The position numbers and the translations under genes are program-made. A stretch of DNA of 64,000 nt. Source: Elusimicrobiales bacterium (GTDB taxonomy: Bacteria; Elusimicrobiota; Elusimicrobia; Elusimicrobiales; UBA9959). The stretch covers positions 124,001-188,000 of the forward strand of contig JAQTOU010000004.1 of the NCBI GenBank assembly GCA_028713125.1, read 5' to 3'. Below, piece by piece: positions 48,859 through 60,337 of the stretch; positions within the stretch are counted from its first letter, which is position 1, and each line of letters opens with the position of its first letter. The notes beneath the pieces were generated by a model. The model ran no database searches, was not told where the DNA came from, and was given only the letters and a program-made list of their open reading frames with translations.

Positions 48859-51800
48859 TCAGGCCGCCGGTTTGGGGTCTTCCTTCATATATTTCTTCCT
48901 GAACCAGAGCTCCAGGTCGTCGAAGAGGGAGTATGTGACCGGGGTCATCAGCAGGGTTATCAGGAGGGACAGGGTCTGGCCGCCTATGATGACTATGGCC
49001 ATCGCGCGGCGCGTGCCCGAGCCGGCGCCGGTGCCCAGCGCCGTCGGTATCATGCCGGCGATCAGGGTCAGCGTGGTCATCAGGATGGGGCGCAGCCGGG
49101 TCTTGTTGGCCTCTATCATCGCCTGGTGGCGCGGCATGCCCTTGGCCCTCAGGGTATTTGTATAGTCCACCTGCAGGATGGAGTTCTTCTTCACGATGCC
49201 GAACAGCATGAAGATGCCCATGATGGAGAACAGCGTCAGGGCCTGGCCGGAGATGAACAGAGAGATGATAGCGAAAGGGATGGTCAGCGGCAGCACTATC
49301 ATGATCGAGACCGGGTGCACGAAGCTCTCGAACTGGCTGGCGAGCACGATATAGATGAAGATGAAAGCCATAAGGAAGGCGATGACGAAGCCTTTCAGCA
49401 TGCTGCCGAGCTCCTTGGCTTTGCCGGTCACGCCGCCGGTGTATTCGGGCGGGACGTTCAGGTCCTTGAAGGCTTTGTCCGCTTCCTTTATAAGCGTGCC
49501 AAGCGGTATCCCATCCATATTCGCAAGCACTTTCACGTTGCGCTGCCGGTTGAAGCGCTCGATCTGGGTCGGGCCCACGCCCTCCACCACTTTCGCGATA
49601 TTGTCCAGGCGCGTGACGCGGTTGACGCCTGCGGGGATCATCAGGGCCTCTATGGCCTCCTTCCTGTCGCGGAAGACGTCCTCGGCGCGCAGGCGCACCT
49701 GGTACAGCTCGTCGCCGTCCTTGAACTTGGTGATATCCTCCTCGCCGCCCACCATGGTGCGCAGGGAAGTGGCGATATCCTCCACCTTCACGCCCTGGTC
49801 GTGGGCGCGCTTGCGGTCGATCTCGACGCGGTATTCCGGCTTGGCGTAGGAGAAGCTGGTGTCCACGTCCACCGCGCCCTTCACCTTGCGCAGCCGGTCG
49901 GCCACGGCCATGGAATACTCGTTGAGCTTGTTAAGGTCGGGGCCGGAGATATTGTACTGCAGCTCCGCCTCGCCGCCGCCGAAGCCGCCGACGGCCGCCA
50001 CCGAGACGCGCAGGCCCTTGTATTTGCTCATCATCTCGCGCGAGGCCAGGACCAGCCTGGAGATCGGCAAAGAGCGGTCTTTTATGTCGACCGCCTCCAC
50101 CAGGACATAACCTTCGTTGGGCGCCGAGGAGCCGCTGTGGCTGCCCGTGCCGGTGCCGATGGATGACAGCGTGTTTATCACGTACGGGATCTGCTTGGTC
50201 TCCGTTTCCACCTGCGCGAAGATCTGCTTCATCATCGAAAGGCTGGTGCCCTCGGGCGCGGTAATGATGATCTGGTATTGGCCTGTGTCGTCGGAGGGCA
50301 GGAAGTCCTTGCCCAGGAACATGGCCAGCGGCACCATGGAGATCATGATGACCACCGCGAAGGCGATCATGCGCTTGCGGCGGGCGAGCGACCATTCCAG
50401 CATCTGGATGTAGTATTTGGCCAGGAACTCGTTTATCCTGTCGGTGCGCTTCTGCATGTCGGTCTTGCCCTTCGGGTTGACCTTGAGGAAGATCGAGCAG
50501 AGCATGGGCGTAAGGGTCAGGGCCACGAAGGTGCTGATGGCCACGGCGTAGGCTATGGTGAGGCCGTAGCTCTTGATGAAGCGGCCTACTATGCCGCCCA
50601 TGTAGGCCAGCGGGACGAAGATGACCAGGAGCGCCGTGGACATGGCCAGCACGGCGAAAGCTATTTCGCGCGAGCCTTCCAGCGAGGCCCTCAGCGGGTC
50701 CATCTTATGCTCTTCCATGTGCCGGTAGATATTCTCCAGCATGACTATGGCGTCGTCGATGACTATGCCGACGGCGATGGTCAGGCCCAGAAGCGTCATG
50801 TTGTTGAGCGTGAAGCCCGAGAGGTCCATGAAGATCAGCGTGCCGATAAGCGAGGTGGGAATGGCCAGCGAGGAGATGATGGTGGAGCGGAAGTCGCCGA
50901 GGAAAAGCAGCACCATCAGCGCGGCCAGGATAGCGCCGAGCACGAGGTGCTCTTTAACGGTGTCGACCGAGGCCTGTATGAAGATGGACTGGTCGCCGAT
51001 TATCTTGGTCTCCACTCCGGGCGGCAGGGTTTTCTTAAGCTCCGCCAGGCGCGCTTTTATGTTCTTGACCACGGCCACGGTATTGGTTCCGGACTGCTTT
51101 TTCACCACCAGCGTTACGGACGGGGCGCCGTTGTAAGAGGAGGAGGTCGTCATGCGGGCCCCGGTGTCCTCGACGCTGCCGATGTCGGAGACGCGCACCT
51201 GCGCGCCGTTTATGGTGGTGATGACGATATCGTTGAAATCCTTTACGTTCTGGATGCGCCCCATGGTGCGCAGCACGAATTCCTTGTTCTTCTGCTCCAC
51301 TTTGCCGCCGGGGATCTCGATATTCTGCTGGATGATGGCGTCCTTGACCTGCTTTATCGACAGGTTCAGGGCTGAAAGCTTCAGCGGGTTGACCACCAGG
51401 TGTATCTCGCGCTCGCGGCCGCCGACTATATCCACGGCGCCGACGCCGTTCACGGTCTCGATGTTCTCCTTGATCTTTTTCTTGGCCAGCTGGGTGAGGT
51501 CTATCAGGTCCCTGTTCCCGTAGATAACTACGTTAAGGACGGGGGTGGCGCCCATGTCGAACTTCGCTATCATAGGCGCGTCGGTGCCCTGCGGCAGCTG
51601 GCGCTGCGCCGAGTTGACCTTGTCGCGCACTTCCTGGGCGGCCACGTCGCCGTTCTTTTCCAGGATGAACTTTATCATCACTATGGAGAGGCCTTCGTAA
51701 CTGGTGGAGGTGATGTCCTCGATGCCGGAGATGGTGTTCACGGCTTCTTCGATAGGTTTTGTGATCGAGGATTCCACTTCTTCCGGGCCGGCGCCGCGCA

Positions 51801-51951
51801 GGGTCGTCTGCACAATGACGAAGGGGAATTCCACGTTCGGGAAAAGGTCCACGCCCAGGCGGAAGTAGGAGAAGGCCCCCAGCACGACGATCGTAAGGAT
51901 CATCATGGTGGTAAAGATCGGTTTGCTGACCGCTATATCCGTTATTTTCAT
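48859..51951 (-). CDS. RND efflux pump inner-membrane transporter (HAE1 type)
   Basis: 1030 aa, full AcrB/MexB length with twelve membrane helices and two large periplasmic domains (about 35-335 and 560-860). TM4 carries the proton-relay pair in GIVIDDAIVMLENI (about 400-413). N-terminal KPIFTTMMILTIVVLG is typical. It exports hydrophobic or amphiphilic compounds together with the adaptor and outer-membrane proteins encoded upstream. Drug specificity cannot be read from the sequence. Confidence 0.96.
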   Translation of the reverse strand: MKITDIAVSKPIFTTMMILTIVVLGAFSYFRLGVDLFPNVEFPFVIVQTTLRGAGPEEVESSITKPIEEAVNTISGIEDITSTSYEGLSIVMIKFILEKNGDVAAQEVRDKVNSAQRQLPQGTDAPMIAKFDMGATPVLNVVIYGNRDLIDLTQLAKKKIKENIETVNGVGAVDIVGGREREIHLVVNPLKLSALNLSIKQVKDAIIQQNIEIPGGKVEQKNKEFVLRTMGRIQNVKDFNDIVITTINGAQVRVSDIGSVEDTGARMTTSSSYNGAPSVTLVVKKQSGTNTVAVVKNIKARLAELKKTLPPGVETKIIGDQSIFIQASVDTVKEHLVLGAILAALMVLLFLGDFRSTIISSLAIPTSLIGTLIFMDLSGFTLNNMTLLGLTIAVGIVIDDAIVMLENIYRHMEEHKMDPLRASLEGSREIAFAVLAMSTALLVIFVPLAYMGGIVGRFIKSYGLTIAYAVAISTFVALTLTPMLCSIFLKVNPKGKTDMQKRTDRINEFLAKYYIQMLEWSLARRKRMIAFAVVIMISMVPLAMFLGKDFLPSDDTGQYQIIITAPEGTSLSMMKQIFAQVETETKQIPYVINTLSSIGTGTGSHSGSSAPNEGYVLVEAVDIKDRSLPISRLVLASREMMSKYKGLRVSVAAVGGFGGGEAELQYNISGPDLNKLNEYSMAVADRLRKVKGAVDVDTSFSYAKPEYRVEIDRKRAHDQGVKVEDIATSLRTMVGGEEDITKFKDGDELYQVRLRAEDVFRDRKEAIEALMIPAGVNRVTRLDNIAKVVEGVGPTQIERFNRQRNVKVLANMDGIPLGTLIKEADKAFKDLNVPPEYTGGVTGKAKELGSMLKGFVIAFLMAFIFIYIVLASQFESFVHPVSIMIVLPLTIPFAIISLFISGQALTLFSIMGIFMLFGIVKKNSILQVDYTNTLRAKGMPRHQAMIEANKTRLRPILMTTLTLIAGMIPTALGTGAGSGTRRAMAIVIIGGQTLSLLITLLMTPVTYSLFDDLELWFRKKYMKEDPKPAA

Positions 51952-52028: not shown

Positions 52029-52916
52029 TTATTGCTGTACCTTAATCTTGCTGCCGTCTTTTAAGCCGTACAGGCCGAATGTTATTATTTCCGCGCCTTC
52101 TTTCACTCCGTTGATCTGGACGAAGTCGTCCGTCCTTATCCCGGTTTTAACCGGCACCCTGGCGGCGAGGTTTCCGGCCGCGGGCACGAACACGAAATCT
52201 CCTCCGTCCTGGCTCACCACCGCGCCGGCCGGAACCGAAAGGGCCGCGCCGCGGGCGGCCGTTATAAGGCGCGCCTCGGCGAACATGCCTGATTTCAGGC
52301 GCCCGTCGACGTTATCCACCAGCACTTCCACCAGCGTGTTGCGGGAGCGGGAATCCACCACCGGGCTGACGCGGTAGACGCTGCCGGAGAAGTAGGTATC
52401 GGGGAAAGCGTCCACTTTTATCCGCGCGCGCTGGTCCTTGAAGACCTTGCCTATATATTTCTCGGGTACGTCCACCGCCACCCGGACCATGCCCTGGTTC
52501 ACAACCAGCGCTATCGGGGTCTGCGGATTTACGCTGGCGCCGATGTCCTGGTAGATGCGGCCGACCACCCCGGTCAGCGTGGACGGCACGGGCGCGGGCT
52601 CGTAAACGGTTCCCACTTCGTCGCGCTCGATAAGGGCCACGGCCTCGTCTTTCTTTACGGCGTCGCCCTCTTTAAGGAGGTTCTTCATCAGTTTGCCGGA
52701 GATCCTCGGGTAGAGCGTGGCTTCGTCCATGGCTTTCACCGAGCCGGTAAGCATTATATATTCCTCGAGGTTCCGTACCTGGGCCTTCTCGGTCTTGACC
52801 AGGAAGCGGTCCTTTTCAAGGTTGTTGAAGGCTTCGAGCTCTTTGTTCCTGCAGCCGGAGGCCAGCGCCGCCGCCGCGAGCGTTAAAATAAATATCCGTG
52901 TTTTGATTTTTTTCAT
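52029..52916 (-). CDS. RND periplasmic adaptor (membrane fusion) lipoprotein
   Basis: 295 aa. A lipobox LASGC places C22 as the lipidated residue. The HlyD-type order is visible: beta-barrel and split lipoyl halves around 60-130 (LKEGDAVKKDEAVALIERDE; VGRIYQDIGASVNPQTPIA), and a C-terminal barrel. The alpha-hairpin is very short, so the adaptor may contact the TolC-like partner differently from AcrA. It is the middle gene of the efflux operon. Confidence 0.92.
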   Translation of the reverse strand: MKKIKTRIFILTLAAAALASGCRNKELEAFNNLEKDRFLVKTEKAQVRNLEEYIMLTGSVKAMDEATLYPRISGKLMKNLLKEGDAVKKDEAVALIERDEVGTVYEPAPVPSTLTGVVGRIYQDIGASVNPQTPIALVVNQGMVRVAVDVPEKYIGKVFKDQRARIKVDAFPDTYFSGSVYRVSPVVDSRSRNTLVEVLVDNVDGRLKSGMFAEARLITAARGAALSVPAGAVVSQDGGDFVFVPAAGNLAARVPVKTGIRTDDFVQINGVKEGAEIITFGLYGLKDGSKIKVQQ

Positions 52917-52923
52917 AAATTTA

Positions 52924-52970
52924 ATTCCGATCCCGATCCTTGATTCCCGAGTTCCGATCCCTTATTCCCC
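52924..52970. repeat. Degenerate heptad repeat, locus 4
   Basis: Units GATCCC, GATCCTT, GATTCCC, GAGTTCC, GATCCCT in succession between the TetR-TolC and adaptor genes. Confidence 0.6.
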
Positions 52971-54839
52971 GACCGCCCAGGCCAGCTCGGCCGAAGCCGA
53001 GCAGGCGTCGTGCTGGGCCTGGGTGTAAAGCGTCTGCGCCCTGTTCAGGGCCAGCGTCGCGTCGTTGAGGTCCAGCTGCCCGGCAAGACCGTTGCGGAAG
53101 CGGAGCTCCGTGGCGGCGAGCGCCGTCCTGGCCGTCTCGACCGCCGTGGTCTGGGAGGCCAGGCGCTGCGCGGCTTCGTTCTGCTCCAGCCAGGCTTTCT
53201 TCACCGCTATCTTCAATTCGCGGCCGGTATTTTTCAGGTTCTCGCCGGCTATGGCCAGTTCCAGCTCGGCCTGTTTTACTTTGGAGACCACCGCGCCGCC
53301 GGAGAAAAGCGGAAGGTTGAGCCTGAGGCCCGCCGACAGGCTCCAGGTGCGCTCGTCGGCCCCGGGGAAGCCGCCGTTGGTCTGGCCCTGGAACTGCTTC
53401 GTGGCGTAGGCGCCGAGATAGGGGTAATGGCCCGCTCTTTCTATCGTTATGTTCTCGAAGGCCAGCCTTTTCTGCAGGTCGGCCAGCCGGTATTCCGGGC
53501 GGGAGGCCATGGCCTTCGCGTAAAGAGTTTCGAGCGCGGGGGCGTTTTGCGCCGCGCAGCCCATGCTTCCGGAAAGGGCGAGAGGGGCGTCGGGCTCCAT
53601 GCCCAGGAGATTCTTAAGCGACAGCAGCCCGAGCTCGTAATAGTTCAGGTTCTGCATCACGGCCGGCTCATTGTTGGAAACCTCCACTTTCTGGCGCAGC
53701 ACGGCCAGGTCGCTGGCGAGCCCCTGTTTGTATTGAGCCTCTATGGTGGCTAAATGCTGCCTTGCGAGTTCCAGCGTCTCCTTCTGTATGTCCGCCATGG
53801 CCTTGGAGAGGAGCACCGAGTAATAGAGCTGGGTGACGGCTTTCTTTACCGTGTTCCGGGCCGCGCGCAGCTGTTCGGAGCTGGAGTCGGAATAGATGCC
53901 GGCCATGGTGATCCCGGTGTGCACTTTGCCGCCGGCCCAGAGCACCTGGTTCAGGTCCAGCGAGGCCGCGTAGGAATTGTCCAGCCCCATCGTTATCTTC
54001 TTGCCGCCGAAAAATATGGAGGATTTTTCGATGTTGCGCGTGTACTGCGCGCTGGCGCTCAGCTGGGGGTAAACCCCGCCCCAGTACTCGAGGATCTTCT
54101 CCTTATAGATGAGGCGGGCGCGCTCCGCGTTGGCTACGGAGGTGTTGTTCTTCATGGCCAGTTTCACCGCCGCGTCGACGCTGACGTCGGCGGACTGGGC
54201 TTTGGCGAGCAGGGGGGAGAGCAGCAGTATGACCAGGGCCGCTTTCAGGCCGCGCGCCCCGCGCGCGATGATCCCCGCCAGGCGGGCCGGCAGGCTTTTG
54301 TCCAGGCTGGCCGCGCCGGACTCGCGGGCTTCTATCATGAAATGGGCTATTACCGAGCTGACCATGTGGACGATATCCTCCGCGGCGCGGCGCGGCAGGT
54401 TCTCCTCTTCCAGCATCCGGCGCAGCGCGGCGCGGTTGCGGGTCTTGAATTCCAGGTGGATCTGGCTCATTACGCCTTCGGAGGGGGAGGCGATTATCTT
54501 GAGCGCGCACTTCGGCATGTCCGGGTAGCGCCTGATGAAGGAAAGATGGTTGGAGAAAATGCGCTCCAGCTTCTGCTCCAGCGTCAGGCCGGAGTCCTTT
54601 ATCTCCATATTGAGTTCCTGGAAATGTTTTGTGCCTTCGGCAAAAGAGGCGCGGATAAGCTCGTTCTTATCCTTGAAATAATAGTAGAGCACCGGCTTGG
54701 TGATCTTCAGCTTGGCGGAGATCTCGCGCATCGAGACGCCGTCCGGGCCTTTCTCGGCCATCAGGGCCGAGGCCGTCTCCAGTATGCGCTGGCGGGTCTT
54801 GTCGCCCTTCGTTTCTTTGGGTGTCGTTTGTGGTTTCAT
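52962..54839 (-). CDS. TetR repressor fused to a TolC-type outer-membrane efflux protein
   Basis: 625 aa in one uninterrupted frame. Residues 1-205 form a TetR/AcrR protein: HTH (about 18-64) with VSMREISAKLKITKPVLYYYF and a ligand domain ending in the usual LAGIIARGARGL. At about 206-222 this runs into a hydrophobic signal-like segment (ALVILLLSPLLAKAQS), then a TolC domain (about 225-625) with two OEP repeats. In other bacteria these are two genes. No in-frame ATG or GTG lies near the signal; the nearest is ATG in HFMIEAR (about 30 residues upstream). Either a fusion with DNA-binding and membrane parts, or internal initiation, must explain it. It is first in the pump operon, behind a strong promoter and palindromic operator. 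Confidence 0.88.
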   Translation of the reverse strand: MKPQTTPKETKGDKTRQRILETASALMAEKGPDGVSMREISAKLKITKPVLYYYFKDKNELIRASFAEGTKHFQELNMEIKDSGLTLEQKLERIFSNHLSFIRRYPDMPKCALKIIASPSEGVMSQIHLEFKTRNRAALRRMLEEENLPRRAAEDIVHMVSSVIAHFMIEARESGAASLDKSLPARLAGIIARGARGLKAALVILLLSPLLAKAQSADVSVDAAVKLAMKNNTSVANAERARLIYKEKILEYWGGVYPQLSASAQYTRNIEKSSIFFGGKKITMGLDNSYAASLDLNQVLWAGGKVHTGITMAGIYSDSSSEQLRAARNTVKKAVTQLYYSVLLSKAMADIQKETLELARQHLATIEAQYKQGLASDLAVLRQKVEVSNNEPAVMQNLNYYELGLLSLKNLLGMEPDAPLALSGSMGCAAQNAPALETLYAKAMASRPEYRLADLQKRLAFENITIERAGHYPYLGAYATKQFQGQTNGGFPGADERTWSLSAGLRLNLPLFSGGAVVSKVKQAELELAIAGENLKNTGRELKIAVKKAWLEQNEAAQRLASQTTAVETARTALAATELRFRNGLAGQLDLNDATLALNRAQTLYTQAQHDACSASAELAWAVGE

Positions 54840-54852
54840 AAATGCTTAAAAC

Positions 54853-54870
54853 TTACCTACCGGTAGATAA
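54853..54870. promoter_or_regulatory. Palindromic TetR-type operator
   Basis: TTACCTACC-GGTAGATAA: two 9-bp arms with one mismatch, centred just downstream of the -10 box of the efflux promoter, as expected for autorepression by the TetR part. Confidence 0.75.
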
Positions 54871-54899
54871 ATTGTAGCAGAGCGGGCGCCGGCTGTCAA
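54871..54899 (-). promoter_or_regulatory. Strong sigma70-type promoter of the efflux operon
   Basis: On the minus strand TTGACA (54894-54899), exactly 17 bp, TACAAT (54871-54876). The start site would fall inside the palindromic operator; the leader is about 30 nt. Confidence 0.8.
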
Positions 54900-55013: not shown

Positions 55014-56990
55014 TCAGGGGTTGGCGGGGAAGTATATATCGAATTTTGTGCCCTGTCCCGGACTGCTCGTGATGTTTATGCCGCCTTTATGGAGCTGCAC
55101 CAGGGAGTAAACCGTGGCAAGGCCGAGGCCGGTACCCTGGCCCTCCGGCTTGGTGGTAAAGAACGGTTCGAAGACCCGCTCCGCCACTTCCGGGGGCATA
55201 CCGCAGCCGTCGTCGGAGACGGCGAGCCTGACTACATTCGAGCAGTCCGCCACCTCCTTCCCGCAGGTCCCGGCCGGGGTGTTTTCAGGGCGAGAGGTGG
55301 TTATGGAAAATTCCCCGCCTTTGGGAAGAAGCGCGTCGCGTGCGTTCACGGCCAGGTTTACAAGGACCTGCTCCAACTGTCCTTTATTACCGGTTATGAG
55401 GGGCAGGCCGGGAGCGAGCGAAAGTTTAAGGCGTATTTTCTTTTCGAGGACCACTCCGAGCATTCCGCTCAGGCCGCTTATTACCGCGTTAAGGTCCAGG
55501 GCGGACATTTCCGCGGGCTGGTTCCTGCTGTAGGCCAGGATCTGCTTTACCAGGGCGGAGCCCCTGTCCAGGCCGGAGGCCGTTTCTTTGACGAACCTTT
55601 CCGCTTCGCTGCCGGCCGGCAGGGTTTCAAGCGCCAGGTCATTGAAGCCCTGGGTTACCGTAAGGATATTGTTGAAGTCGTGGGCTATGGCGCCGGCTGT
55701 TTTTCCCAGGGATTCCATTTTTTGGGCCTGGAAGGCCTTGGCCTCCAGGTTCTTGTACTCCACGGCCTTGGCTATTATCGCGCAGGCCGCTTCAAGGAAA
55801 GCCTGCTCGCCCTCGTCGTATTTATGCCCCGGGCGCAGGTAGAGGTTCAGCACGCCGATAAGCTTATCCTTTCCTTTTATAGGAAGGCAGTAATGGCCGT
55901 GGGGTCTCATTCCCTCGTAGTGCACCTCGTGCCTTTCGTCGAGCACCGGCGCGAAAACCGTCTTGCCGGATTCGGCGGCCCTCCCGCACAGGCAGCGGCC
56001 ATAAGGCACATTACGGCAGGCTGCGGCGGTTCCTTCGGCCAGTCCGCGCTGCGCAGCCATCCGGAGGCTCGTCCCTCCCGTATCGGCCAGGAGTATGGCC
56101 CCTTTGGACTCGTGGGTCAGCCAGGGTATGGCCATGATATTTTCAAGGAACTTCTCCAGCAGTTCGGCCAGCGTCCCGTGTTCGAGCAGGATAGCCAGCA
56201 GGCCGGCTATGGCGGCGCGCTTCTCTACGTCCCTGCTTATGGTCCTGGACATTTCCGAGAAAGTTTTAAAAAGACTCCCGACCTCGTCCCCCGAGGAGAC
56301 CGGCGGCAGCTCCCGGAAATTCCCGGCGGTAATTTCAGCCGCGGCTTTATCGAGGATAAGAAGGGGCCCGACTATTTTCTTTTGCGTAAAGTAAAAAACT
56401 ACGGCTCCGAAAAGCAGGTTCAGCGCTATCAGCAGCAGCATCAGGCGGGCCATTCCGCGCGTCGCGTCCTCAGCCGTTTTGCGGTAAGCGGCCGTTACGT
56501 CGTCGCAGGCCGAGAGCAGCGCTTCGGAATGCGATTCCACGTAGGAGAGGGCCCGGCGGAAAGCGGGCCCGCCGGCCGCGGCGCCCGAGAGCGCAAGCGC
56601 GGCCTCCCTGTAGGGCTTCCAGACGGCCTCTTCGGCGCTGACCAGCGGCGCTATTGTAGCGGGGGCCGGGGAGACGAAAAAGTTCCTTGAGGGGCCGCCG
56701 TGCTTGAAGGCCTCGAGGGTTTCATGGAATTCTGCCGTAAGCTCTTTGAGCGTACCACGGTCCGTATCGTGCCCGGCGCTGATCTGGAAAGCCATGTAGG
56801 CTATTTTCTGCGACAGCATCCGCTGGCGGCCGGCCGCGTCCACCGCGGTGGCGGTCTGGTCAAGTTCGTCCAGCAGGTGGTCGTAGGCGAGGAAGTTAGC
56901 GACGAAGAGCCCGGCAAAGGTCAGGATGACGATGAGCAGTTTCCTGCCCAGTGTCAGTCTTGGCGCCAGTTTATTCTGTATCGGATCCAT
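55014..56990 (-). CDS. Membrane sensor histidine kinase with PilJ-type input, HAMP and GAF domains
   Basis: 658 aa. TM1 (about 17-36) and TM2 (about 180-203) enclose a periplasmic PilJ/NIT-like domain with the signature [14 protein letters not shown] (about 51-64). HAMP (about 205-255), GAF (about 270-415, with several Cys around [12 protein letters not shown]), HisKA with H437 in [11 protein letters not shown] and HATPase (about 530-655; [21 protein letters not shown]) follow. This domain set is typical of NtrY/AtoS-like kinases that sense small anions such as nitrate. No response regulator is adjacent. Confidence 0.92.
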
Positions 56991-57277: not shown

Positions 57278-58183
57278 ATGAAAAAAAACCTGATATACAC
57301 TTTCCTTCTTCTGGCCTGCGCGGTCCTCTCGGCTTCCGCCGACGGGGAACAGATGAAGCTCGACACTCTCCTCACCGGCCACAGGGGTTTCTGGGACCCG
57401 GCCTTCCAGGACTGCATAGAAACCTCGGACGGCTACCTGAATTCGAGCAATACCATGAACTTGTATTCCGAGCCCAAGGATACCAGGGGCTTCCGCGACT
57501 CCGTGATCTCGGCGCCGCCCCCCGCGCTCAGGATCCCGGCCGCTGTTAAAACCCCCGCCGCGGCCGCCAGGGCGCTGCCCGAGGAAAGGGCCGGCCTGCC
57601 GGCGCTGCCGTCCGGTCATTATAAAGTCACTTTCGCCGGGGAAAACGGCCCCGTCGGGTCGTACGTGAGGCCGCTGGATTCGGGCTCCCGGAAATACGCC
57701 AGGGAGTATGTGCTGCTCGGCGTCGCCGTAGGCGAGGGCTCCTATGACAAGCTTCTGCCCAAGCTCGAGGCCGCGGGCCTGAGATTCGCCGGGGAAAAGA
57801 TCTCCTACGGTAAAAAAGACAAAAAAACCGTCATCCTGGGCTGGGCGCCTTACGCGAATATGGCCGGGATAGCCAAGATCGCCGGCGTGACCGGCGTGGC
57901 CGTGGAAAAAAAGAGCACGGGCATGCCGCTCAAGGCGAAGGTGCGCTTTACCCTGAAGGTCCCCTACCAGAACAAGCCTAACGTCTTCGTGCCGGAGTTC
58001 ATAAAGGGCCTGACCGAAAAAAGCGGCTTTGATCCCGGTAACTGGTTCCGCCTGCCGCAGAAAAACGCCGAATCCAAGTTCAGCGTTTTTAACGTCACCG
58101 GCACTCTTCCCGTCGACATGATAGGGGAGCTTTCCCGCTCTCCTTTCGTCGCCTCCGTGGAATTCAACGACGCTTCTCTGTAA
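57278..58183 (+). CDS. Secreted protein of unknown function
   Basis: 301 aa with a signal peptide ending near SASA (about 21). After a Pro/Ala-rich linker (about 75-108), residues 109-301 seem to hold two similar alpha/beta units (YVLLGVAVGEGSYDKLLPKLEAAG and FIKGLTEKSGFD, then ISRSP-like ends VTGVAVEKK and PFVASVEFND) reminiscent of small inhibitor or BON-like folds. I do not recognise a family. No Shine-Dalgarno is strong (CATAGGAAT). Expression is probably governed by the leader terminator upstream. A terminator follows. Confidence 0.75.
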   Translation: MKKNLIYTFLLLACAVLSASADGEQMKLDTLLTGHRGFWDPAFQDCIETSDGYLNSSNTMNLYSEPKDTRGFRDSVISAPPPALRIPAAVKTPAAAARALPEERAGLPALPSGHYKVTFAGENGPVGSYVRPLDSGSRKYAREYVLLGVAVGEGSYDKLLPKLEAAGLRFAGEKISYGKKDKKTVILGWAPYANMAGIAKIAGVTGVAVEKKSTGMPLKAKVRFTLKVPYQNKPNVFVPEFIKGLTEKSGFDPGNWFRLPQKNAESKFSVFNVTGTLPVDMIGELSRSPFVASVEFNDASL

Positions 58184-58309: not shown

Positions 58310-59110
58310 ATGACCGAACACAAACACCTTCATGAGCCCCCGCACGTGCACGTTAAGCCGCGCAAGGGCTACCGGGTGGCTTTTTTGCTTGCTTTTTCCG
58401 CCGGCCTCCTGGCCGAGATGCTGCTTTTCATGCACGCCCAGATGCGCGAGATAGCGGTGCTGCTTAAAGAAGATTTCCGCATTATAGTTGTGCGCGACGA
58501 AAAAACGAAAGAGAGCGCGGAGGCCATGGGCGCGGCGCTCGCCGGCATCAAAGGGACCTCGCAGGCCGTTTACATAAGCCGCCAGGACAGGCTGGCCCGC
58601 CTTAAGGCGGAGGAGCCGGAGCTCGTGTCCTCCGTGCTTCCTCCCGGCTCGAACCCCATGCCGGATACATGGGAAGTGATAATGACGGAGGACGCTCTGG
58701 GAGACATGAACGCCTGGACGGACGCGGCCTGGCGCGTTCCGGGGGTCGCCGACATAAAGTACAAGCCCCTCGAGGCTTACGCCATAATGCACGCCGTTTT
58801 TTACGGGCACCTGATAACGCTGGGCCTCGCCCTGGCCTTCCTGGCTTTCATGATCATGGCGGCCATGGCCCTCGCGCACGGACACACCCCGGCTTCGCTG
58901 GCGGCTTCCCTCGGGGCCGACAGGAACTGGTTCCTCGCCGGCGCCGGCGGCTCCCTGGCTTCGGCCCTGGCCGCCTACGCGGTGGTTTACCCGGTTAAAT
59001 ATTTAAGCCCGCTCTGGGTCTGGCCCAACCCCCTTTGGCAGGCCGGGATGGGCGTTTCCGGCGCGCTCCTGGGCTGGGCTCTCTGCCAGTGGAAGAACGA
59101 CCGCTATTGA
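58310..59110 (+). CDS. ftsX: FtsX-like cell-division permease
   Basis: 266 aa. A His-rich basic N-terminus is followed by TM1 (about 22-40), the FtsX extracellular domain (about 45-155, with SRQDRLARLKAEEPELVSS and NPMPDTWEV), and three further helices. FtsX transmits ATP hydrolysis by FtsE to periplasmic EnvC to activate cell-wall amidases. envC lies 9 bp downstream. ftsE, normally directly upstream, is not in this window; the gene instead has its own promoter. A few helices are poorly hydrophobic, but the fold is complete. Confidence 0.87.
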   Translation: MTEHKHLHEPPHVHVKPRKGYRVAFLLAFSAGLLAEMLLFMHAQMREIAVLLKEDFRIIVVRDEKTKESAEAMGAALAGIKGTSQAVYISRQDRLARLKAEEPELVSSVLPPGSNPMPDTWEVIMTEDALGDMNAWTDAAWRVPGVADIKYKPLEAYAIMHAVFYGHLITLGLALAFLAFMIMAAMALAHGHTPASLAASLGADRNWFLAGAGGSLASALAAYAVVYPVKYLSPLWVWPNPLWQAGMGVSGALLGWALCQWKNDRY

Positions 59111-59119
59111 AATAGTCAA

Positions 59120-60337
59120 ATGTCACAAGCTGCAACTCACAAGCCGCGGATATTCTCAGCCGCGCTGGCCCGCGCCGGCGCCGCCGCGGCTTTCCTGCTC
59201 CTGCTGGGTTTCTCTTTCCCGCACCAGTGCCGGGGGCAGCAGCCCGCCGTCGACGCCAAAAAGAAGAACCTCGACGAGATAAACCGCCAGCTGGAGGAAA
59301 AGAAAAAAGAGATGGAGCAGTACCGGCTGGAGGAGGAGCGCATCGCCTCCGAGATCTCCGGCCTGAAAAAAGAGGAAAAACAGACCGCCTCCCGCCGCCA
59401 GGAACTCGAGGGCCAGCTTGACAAGTCCCGCTCCCGCTCAGGCGAAGCCCGCCAGAAATACGAGTCGCTGGAAAAAGCCAAGAAGGACCTGGCCGGGGAC
59501 ATCTCCGGGGAGCTGGTGATGTATTCGATGCAGAAGGATTTCTATTACCCGTATTACGGCGGGCGCGACATCTCCAAAGACATGCTGATGCGCGCGGCCA
59601 TGCTCAACAAGCGCGCCCTGCTGACCCGCATCAAAGGCGAGACCGCCCGCGTCAACAAAGATATCGAGATCCTCAAACAGAAGGGCGTGGAGCTGAAATC
59701 CAAGCAGGAATTGCTGCGCAAGCAGAGCTCGGCCCAGAAGACGATGGTCAAAGCCAAACAGAGCGAGCTGGACAAAACCCACGAGCAGCAGGCCAGGCTG
59801 GGCAGGGAACTCGAAAATCTCCAGAACGCCGCCCTCGGCCTTACCCGGCTGGTAAAAAAACTTCAGAAGCAGGCCCCCTACCGCAGCCAGGAGGGAACCG
59901 ATCTGCCTATCGACAAGGGCTCCATGTACTGGCCCGCCAAGGGAAAAGTTATTAGCCGCTTCGGCAGGGAAGACGTGCCGGGGCTTAAAACCTGGATCGT
60001 GCGGGAGGGGATCCGCATAGCCACGGAGCCGGGCGCCACGGTGTACTCCGTGCTGGCCGGCAAGGTCATCTACTCGGGCCCGTTCCGCGCTTACGGGAAC
60101 GTGGTGATAATCGACCATGAAAAAGGCTTTTTCACTATCTACGGGCTTTTAAGCCGGATCGACGCGTCCAAAGGACAGGTCGTCCCCGCGCTGACGCCTC
60201 TCGGCCTGGCCGGCGAGGATACGCAGGCCATGAGCTCGGGCAAAAAGTCGCAGGGAAGCGCCGTTTATTTCGAGATCCGCAAGGGCGACCGGGCTTTAGA
60301 CCCCCTGAAGTGGCTCCCGTCCGCGATCGTGCAGTAA
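59120..60337 (+). CDS. envC: EnvC-type murein hydrolase activator
   Basis: 405 aa with an N-terminal export signal (hydrophobic about 17-36), a long coiled coil (about 45-270; KKKEMEQYRLEEERIAS) and a C-terminal LytM domain (about 283-400). The LytM zinc ligands are replaced (REGIRIAT where peptidases have H-x-G-x-D, and FTIYGLL where they have Y-x-H), so it should not cut peptidoglycan but activate amidases, as E. coli EnvC does. It follows ftsX and precedes ctpA, the usual gene order. Confidence 0.92.
   Translation: MSQAATHKPRIFSAALARAGAAAAFLLLLGFSFPHQCRGQQPAVDAKKKNLDEINRQLEEKKKEMEQYRLEEERIASEISGLKKEEKQTASRRQELEGQLDKSRSRSGEARQKYESLEKAKKDLAGDISGELVMYSMQKDFYYPYYGGRDISKDMLMRAAMLNKRALLTRIKGETARVNKDIEILKQKGVELKSKQELLRKQSSAQKTMVKAKQSELDKTHEQQARLGRELENLQNAALGLTRLVKKLQKQAPYRSQEGTDLPIDKGSMYWPAKGKVISRFGREDVPGLKTWIVREGIRIATEPGATVYSVLAGKVIYSGPFRAYGNVVIIDHEKGFFTIYGLLSRIDASKGQVVPALTPLGLAGEDTQAMSSGKKSQGSAVYFEIRKGDRALDPLKWLPSAIVQ

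Follow-up and report, generated by a model that had tools for sequence, protein, structure and literature searches.

TetR-family repressors of RND efflux operons are encoded by separate, usually divergent genes (PMC8277102). Local repressors of the AcrR/MtrR type combine a TetR_N domain with the TetR fold and have their operator on the promoter of the RND operon. Channels of the TolC or outer membrane factor family contain OEP repeats, fold into four strands and long helices, form trimers in the outer membrane, carry the signal peptide at the extreme N-terminus, and are associated with adaptor and pump genes. TetR-family repressors are dimers that let go of DNA when a ligand binds. Repressors, which bind DNA, and channels of the outer membrane have their places in different compartments and are normally the products of separate genes. 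Here, we describe one family of Elusimicrobiota in which a drug-pump repressor and the outer-membrane channel of the same pump are encoded as one continuous chain. The parts belong to known families in an operon of known kind, but the one-chain architecture is new. NCBIfam and Pfam matches each span one half or the other and none spans both, and no published TetR-TolC fusion was found in the literature searched, where the one term-matching paper was unrelated. In layout, the nearest comparison is with ToxR and CadC, in which a cytoplasmic N-terminal DNA-binding part is followed by one hydrophobic segment and then an exported part. This is a works-like comparison of layout alone: ToxR and CadC join a winged helix to an exported sensor, whereas the fusion joins a TetR repressor to an outer-membrane channel probably released by cleavage, its domains being TetR_N and OEP rather than a winged-helix domain and a periplasmic sensor domain. 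Both this architecture and its probable maturation route would surprise specialists.

The window, a stretch of 64,000 nucleotides from an Elusimicrobiales bacterium, carries the fused tetR-tolC gene on its minus strand (52962..54839) as an open frame of 625 codons plus stop, which runs from an ATG at 54837-54839 to a stop codon at 52962-52964 and holds both TetR_N and OEP. The single 625-codon frame for TetR and TolC given in a preliminary description, which left the strand unstated, is borne out. Residues 1-197 (54249..54839, minus strand) form a TetR-type repressor by Pfam, predicted structure, and Foldseek, with the TetR_N DNA-binding domain at residues 19-64 (54648-54785, minus strand; Pfam, 4.8e-14). 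Residues 215-625 (52965..54197, minus strand) form a TolC-type outer-membrane channel by the same three approaches, and the Pfam OEP match (5.5e-54) comprises two stretches reaching residue 620, of which 436-620 is the best. An AlphaFold2 model of the fused protein (mean pLDDT 84.6, from a 33-sequence alignment) contains ten TetR helices spanning residues 11-207; the last of these, 183-207, leads to a low-confidence stretch at 200-215 and then to a whole TolC protomer. Foldseek with this model returned TolC structures at 5e-20 and TetR-family structures at 9e-5 with about 190 residues covered, and the structures of AcrR and MtrR match the fused TetR by sequence profile. The repressor part thus has the N-terminal TetR_N helix-turn-helix and the all-helical C-terminal domain of the TetR family, and the channel part has the two OEP repeats and the fold of TolC (Pfam, model, and Foldseek). 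Both halves had been called complete, and they are, but the boundary of the TetR part is at about residue 197, not 205, and the TolC part is 411 and not 400 residues long.

The transition from TetR to the signal-like segment contains neither a linker nor a stop codon. Whereas repressors of the AcrR/MtrR type are separate genes, the repressor is here the N-terminal part of the channel polypeptide, and some 198 repressor residues precede the signal segment, which is internal (residues 199-214) and not at the extreme N-terminus as in other TolC proteins. The channel domain is still a member of the TolC family. The fused gene is the first of an operon and is followed by a membrane-fusion (adaptor) gene (52029..52916, minus strand; HlyD_D23, 7.9e-20) and an RND pump gene (48859..51951, minus strand; ACR_tran, 2.5e-271), so that adaptor and inner-membrane pump genes lie downstream of the fusion, in the gene order of the relatives.

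A phylum-wide search recovered the open frame from 49 genomes, with identity as low as about 35%, which is far more than chance would give. The fusion was counted by an HMM scan over stop-to-stop frames, which was chosen because the genome search tool reads through stops. In the family of the window, 47 of 59 genomes are fused, representing ten genera, and one genome from each of two other families is fused as well. The records of close relatives show Elusimicrobia assembled by many different projects. Relatives with a stop codon or frameshift at the junction had been named as the observation that would speak for an error or for two separate genes; 49 frames proved to be open, and within the fused clade no more than two members have split genes. 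The spacing from the end of TetR to the signal segment is identical in 43 of the 49 fused genes. In a tree of the channel part, one clade has 51 of its 53 rows fused, two damaged copies (L033 and L065) being included in the 51, and further fusions, L036/L095 and L109, are placed elsewhere as two independent fusions. These placements suggest that the join arose about three times in the phylum, a number that is approximate since the tree is a quick one with some long branches. Values of about 685 under 'open_frame_aa' in sister families were taken for extra fusions, but re-reading the DNA revealed an in-frame stop between the genes, and these were counted as split. The same fusion was found neither among the non-Elusimicrobiota loci fetched from genome contigs nor in 124 genomes of the phylum to which a Cloacimonadota record belongs.

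Pairwise dN/dS is at or below 0.22 for the DNA-binding part in all 12 informative pairs and ranges over 0.08-0.33 in the remainder of TetR and 0.08-0.31 in the channel part; by these ratios, both the TetR part and the channel part are under purifying selection. Judged from this comparison of genomes, the fusion is real, old, and maintained. The join has been kept intact across many genera, and so the regulator and the part that it regulates would be made together.

Outside the fused groups, the split order tetR-tolC-mfp-rnd is general, being present in Elusimicrobiaceae, Calditrichota, Ignavibacteria, and Cloacimonadota; it is the ancestral arrangement. The split operons encode homologous proteins in the gene order of the fused operon, but in them a stop codon intervenes between the two genes, and tolC is furnished with a start and a signal peptide of its own. 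In the unfused members of the fused clade, L067 and L069, stop and start overlap as ATGA, which is probably the ancestral junction; L067, which the tree places only approximately, may have reverted to separate genes. Since two clade members are split, the fusion can be dispensed with. In several split relatives (L034, L037-L040, and L112-L115), tetR and tolC share a frame with a single stop codon between them, and so one base change would fuse them. A separate tetR adjoins a much more distant TolC and pump in L035 and L097, and the L097 TetR, a separate gene, shows about 40% full-length identity to the fused TetR.

Upstream of the fused gene, on the minus strand, a -35 element TTGACA (54894..54899) is separated by a 17-base spacer from a -10 element TACAAT (54871..54876), and a promoter of the TTGACA-17-TATAAT type precedes 45 of the 49 fused genes. 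An 18-bp operator-like near-palindrome, TTATCTACCGGTAGGTAA (54853..54870, minus strand), lies over the expected transcription start. The promoter and operator described earlier as intact are therefore present, and the fused gene has an operator-like palindrome on the promoter of its RND operon, where TetR repressors of the AcrR/MtrR type have their operator. The palindrome around CCGGTAGGTA is conserved before 48 of the 49 fused genes, mostly about 20 bases upstream of the ATG, and the independent fusion L109 has a different palindrome of its own, TGACTGACTGGTCAGTCA. Because the core TACCGGTAGGTA occurs a single time in the 3.48-Mb genome, at the fused gene, the TetR part seems to be a self-repressor that acts locally. 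One half of the operator, the downstream one (TAGGTAAG; 54852-54859, minus strand), is at the same time the most Shine-Dalgarno-like stretch preceding the fused gene, so that operator and ribosome site overlap, as they do in most relatives.

The explanation that we favor, with moderate confidence, takes together a maintained one-polypeptide fusion, a self-repressing operon, Sec targeting, and likely cleavage; the sequences themselves show the fusion, its conservation, selection on both parts, the operator-like site, and the signal features. Translation from the tetR start codon would yield a single polypeptide comprising the TetR-type repressor and the TolC-type channel that belongs to the same RND efflux operon. 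By binding the one operator over the operon's transcription start, the repressor part would make the operon self-repressing. The former TolC signal peptide, now KAALVILLLSPLLAKA at residues 199-214 (54198..54245, minus strand) directly after the last TetR helix, would target the chain to Sec, with the TetR part staying on the cytoplasmic side. Signal peptidase I would most likely cleave after AKA214, as predicted from hydrophobicity and the (A/V/S)xA motif, and free a normal channel for the outer membrane. Once cut off, TetR would carry the signal peptide at its C-terminus as a hydrophobic tail, which would presumably tether it to the inner membrane for some time, at least until the tail is degraded; in this form, the tethering proposed in the preliminary description would fit the sequence. 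Several points weigh against this explanation: two members of the fused clade are split, the motif (A/V/S)xA follows the junction segment in 44 of 52 fusions and is not clear in the other 8, and some fused genes contain possible internal starts, from which an extra product may arise. The lineage makes it possible to test by what route a repressor is freed from a precursor targeted to Sec, whether signal peptidase can work when a folded cytoplasmic domain precedes its site, and whether an efflux channel, through its synthesis or export, can feed back directly on its own operon.

TetR and TolC are very probably translated as one chain. Separate translation of TolC predicts a conserved internal start, and none conserved in position or accompanied by a conserved Shine-Dalgarno sequence was found across the 49 fused genes, which favors one chain. 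The ancestral TolC start position, codon 198 (54246..54248, minus strand), is CTG in the window and among the 49 fused genes is ATG in only 10, TTG in 2, CTG in 14, and another codon in 23; Shine-Dalgarno pairing at this codon averages about -3.3 to -3.8 kcal/mol over these genes versus -6.3 kcal/mol at the tetR start. Residues 175-203 are devoid of in-frame ATG, GTG, and TTG in 15 of the 49, including the gene in the window, in agreement with the earlier remark that no usual start codon lies near the junction. The damaged copies lend further support to one-chain translation, since TolC is still in frame behind the TetR remnants both in L033, which has lost TetR residues 47-162 with the reading frame kept, and in L065, which has lost the DNA-binding part, retains about 70 residues before the signal segment, and has a different, separate tetR gene upstream. 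It is unlikely that one frame yields two products, with the first ATG giving full-length TetR-TolC, an internal start at Met159, Met168, or codon 198 giving a TolC precursor by itself, and most TolC made without TetR. Such a scheme could draw on the ten genes with ATG at codon 198, on an in-frame ATG somewhere within residues 175-203 in 22 of 49, and on Met159 of the window's gene (54363..54365, minus strand), the only well-placed internal start candidate, which stands 11 bases after GGAGG (54377-54381; pairing energy -9.5). The Shine-Dalgarno signal at Met159 is, however, weak or absent in most relatives, and L067 has both Met159 and Met168 in its split TetR even though its TolC is translated from a start of its own. 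The translation switch with two products proposed in the preliminary description is weakened by these findings and retains one candidate, Met159, in the window's gene.

Export might itself control repression, a possibility that we hold to be quite improbable. The cytoplasmic full-length precursor would bind the operator, and Sec export with cleavage would take the repressor off it and carry it to the inner membrane, tying operon output to channel export. The presence of repressor and exported cargo in one chain at a fixed distance, and a single operator sited on the gene's own promoter, would fit such coupling, but an ordinary ligand-sensing TetR with a tail would leave identical traces. If true, the gene would encode a self-regulating polyprotein in which the repressor half monitors what becomes of the exported half, and it would stand with the export-monitoring regulators of the SecM type, where expression of an operon is governed by export of its own product.

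The signal-like segment ascribed earlier to the TolC part is indeed present at residues 199-214. This junction segment contains the most hydrophobic 12 residues in 49 of 52 fusions and is slightly more hydrophobic than the signal peptides of split TolC genes. The median length of the hydrophobic core is 15 residues in fusions versus 16.5 in split TolC signal peptides, and AxA is present in 45 of 54 fusions versus 46 of 62 split TolC genes. Because core length and AxA rate match those of split TolC signal peptides, the segment looks like a retained signal peptide, and conversion into a long membrane anchor is not indicated. Very little probability attaches to an uncut fusion, in which the segment would be a permanent anchor and the channel would stay attached to TetR at the inner membrane: the slightly raised hydrophobicity would suit an anchor, but the core has the length of a signal peptide, AxA is found in most fusions, and a TolC retained at the inner membrane is unable to make an outer-membrane channel. 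An assembly or sequencing error, in which a missed stop or frameshift had joined two ordinary genes, is ruled out for practical purposes, for although the separate genes of sister families could be joined by a single base change, the identical open frame recurs in 49 genomes from different projects, which supports the earlier proposal of a new, working architecture.

The divergent fusion of L036 and L095 is common to two genera; its TetR part is nearly identical in the two (synonymous difference 0 to 0.01) and the channel part differs (0.13), a contrast that suggests transfer or recombination. In one genus (L051, L053, and L054), the fusion is immediately preceded by a second, separate tetR in the same orientation (about 740-1410 in gene-strand coordinates). 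In the window, a PilJ-HAMP-GAF sensor histidine kinase gene (55014-56990, minus strand) lies directly upstream of the operon and is co-directional with it. Beyond it, a plus-strand frame of 301 amino acids (57278-58183) with a signal-like start and no Pfam match is followed shortly downstream by an FtsX-like gene (58310-59110) and an M23 peptidase gene (59120-60337).
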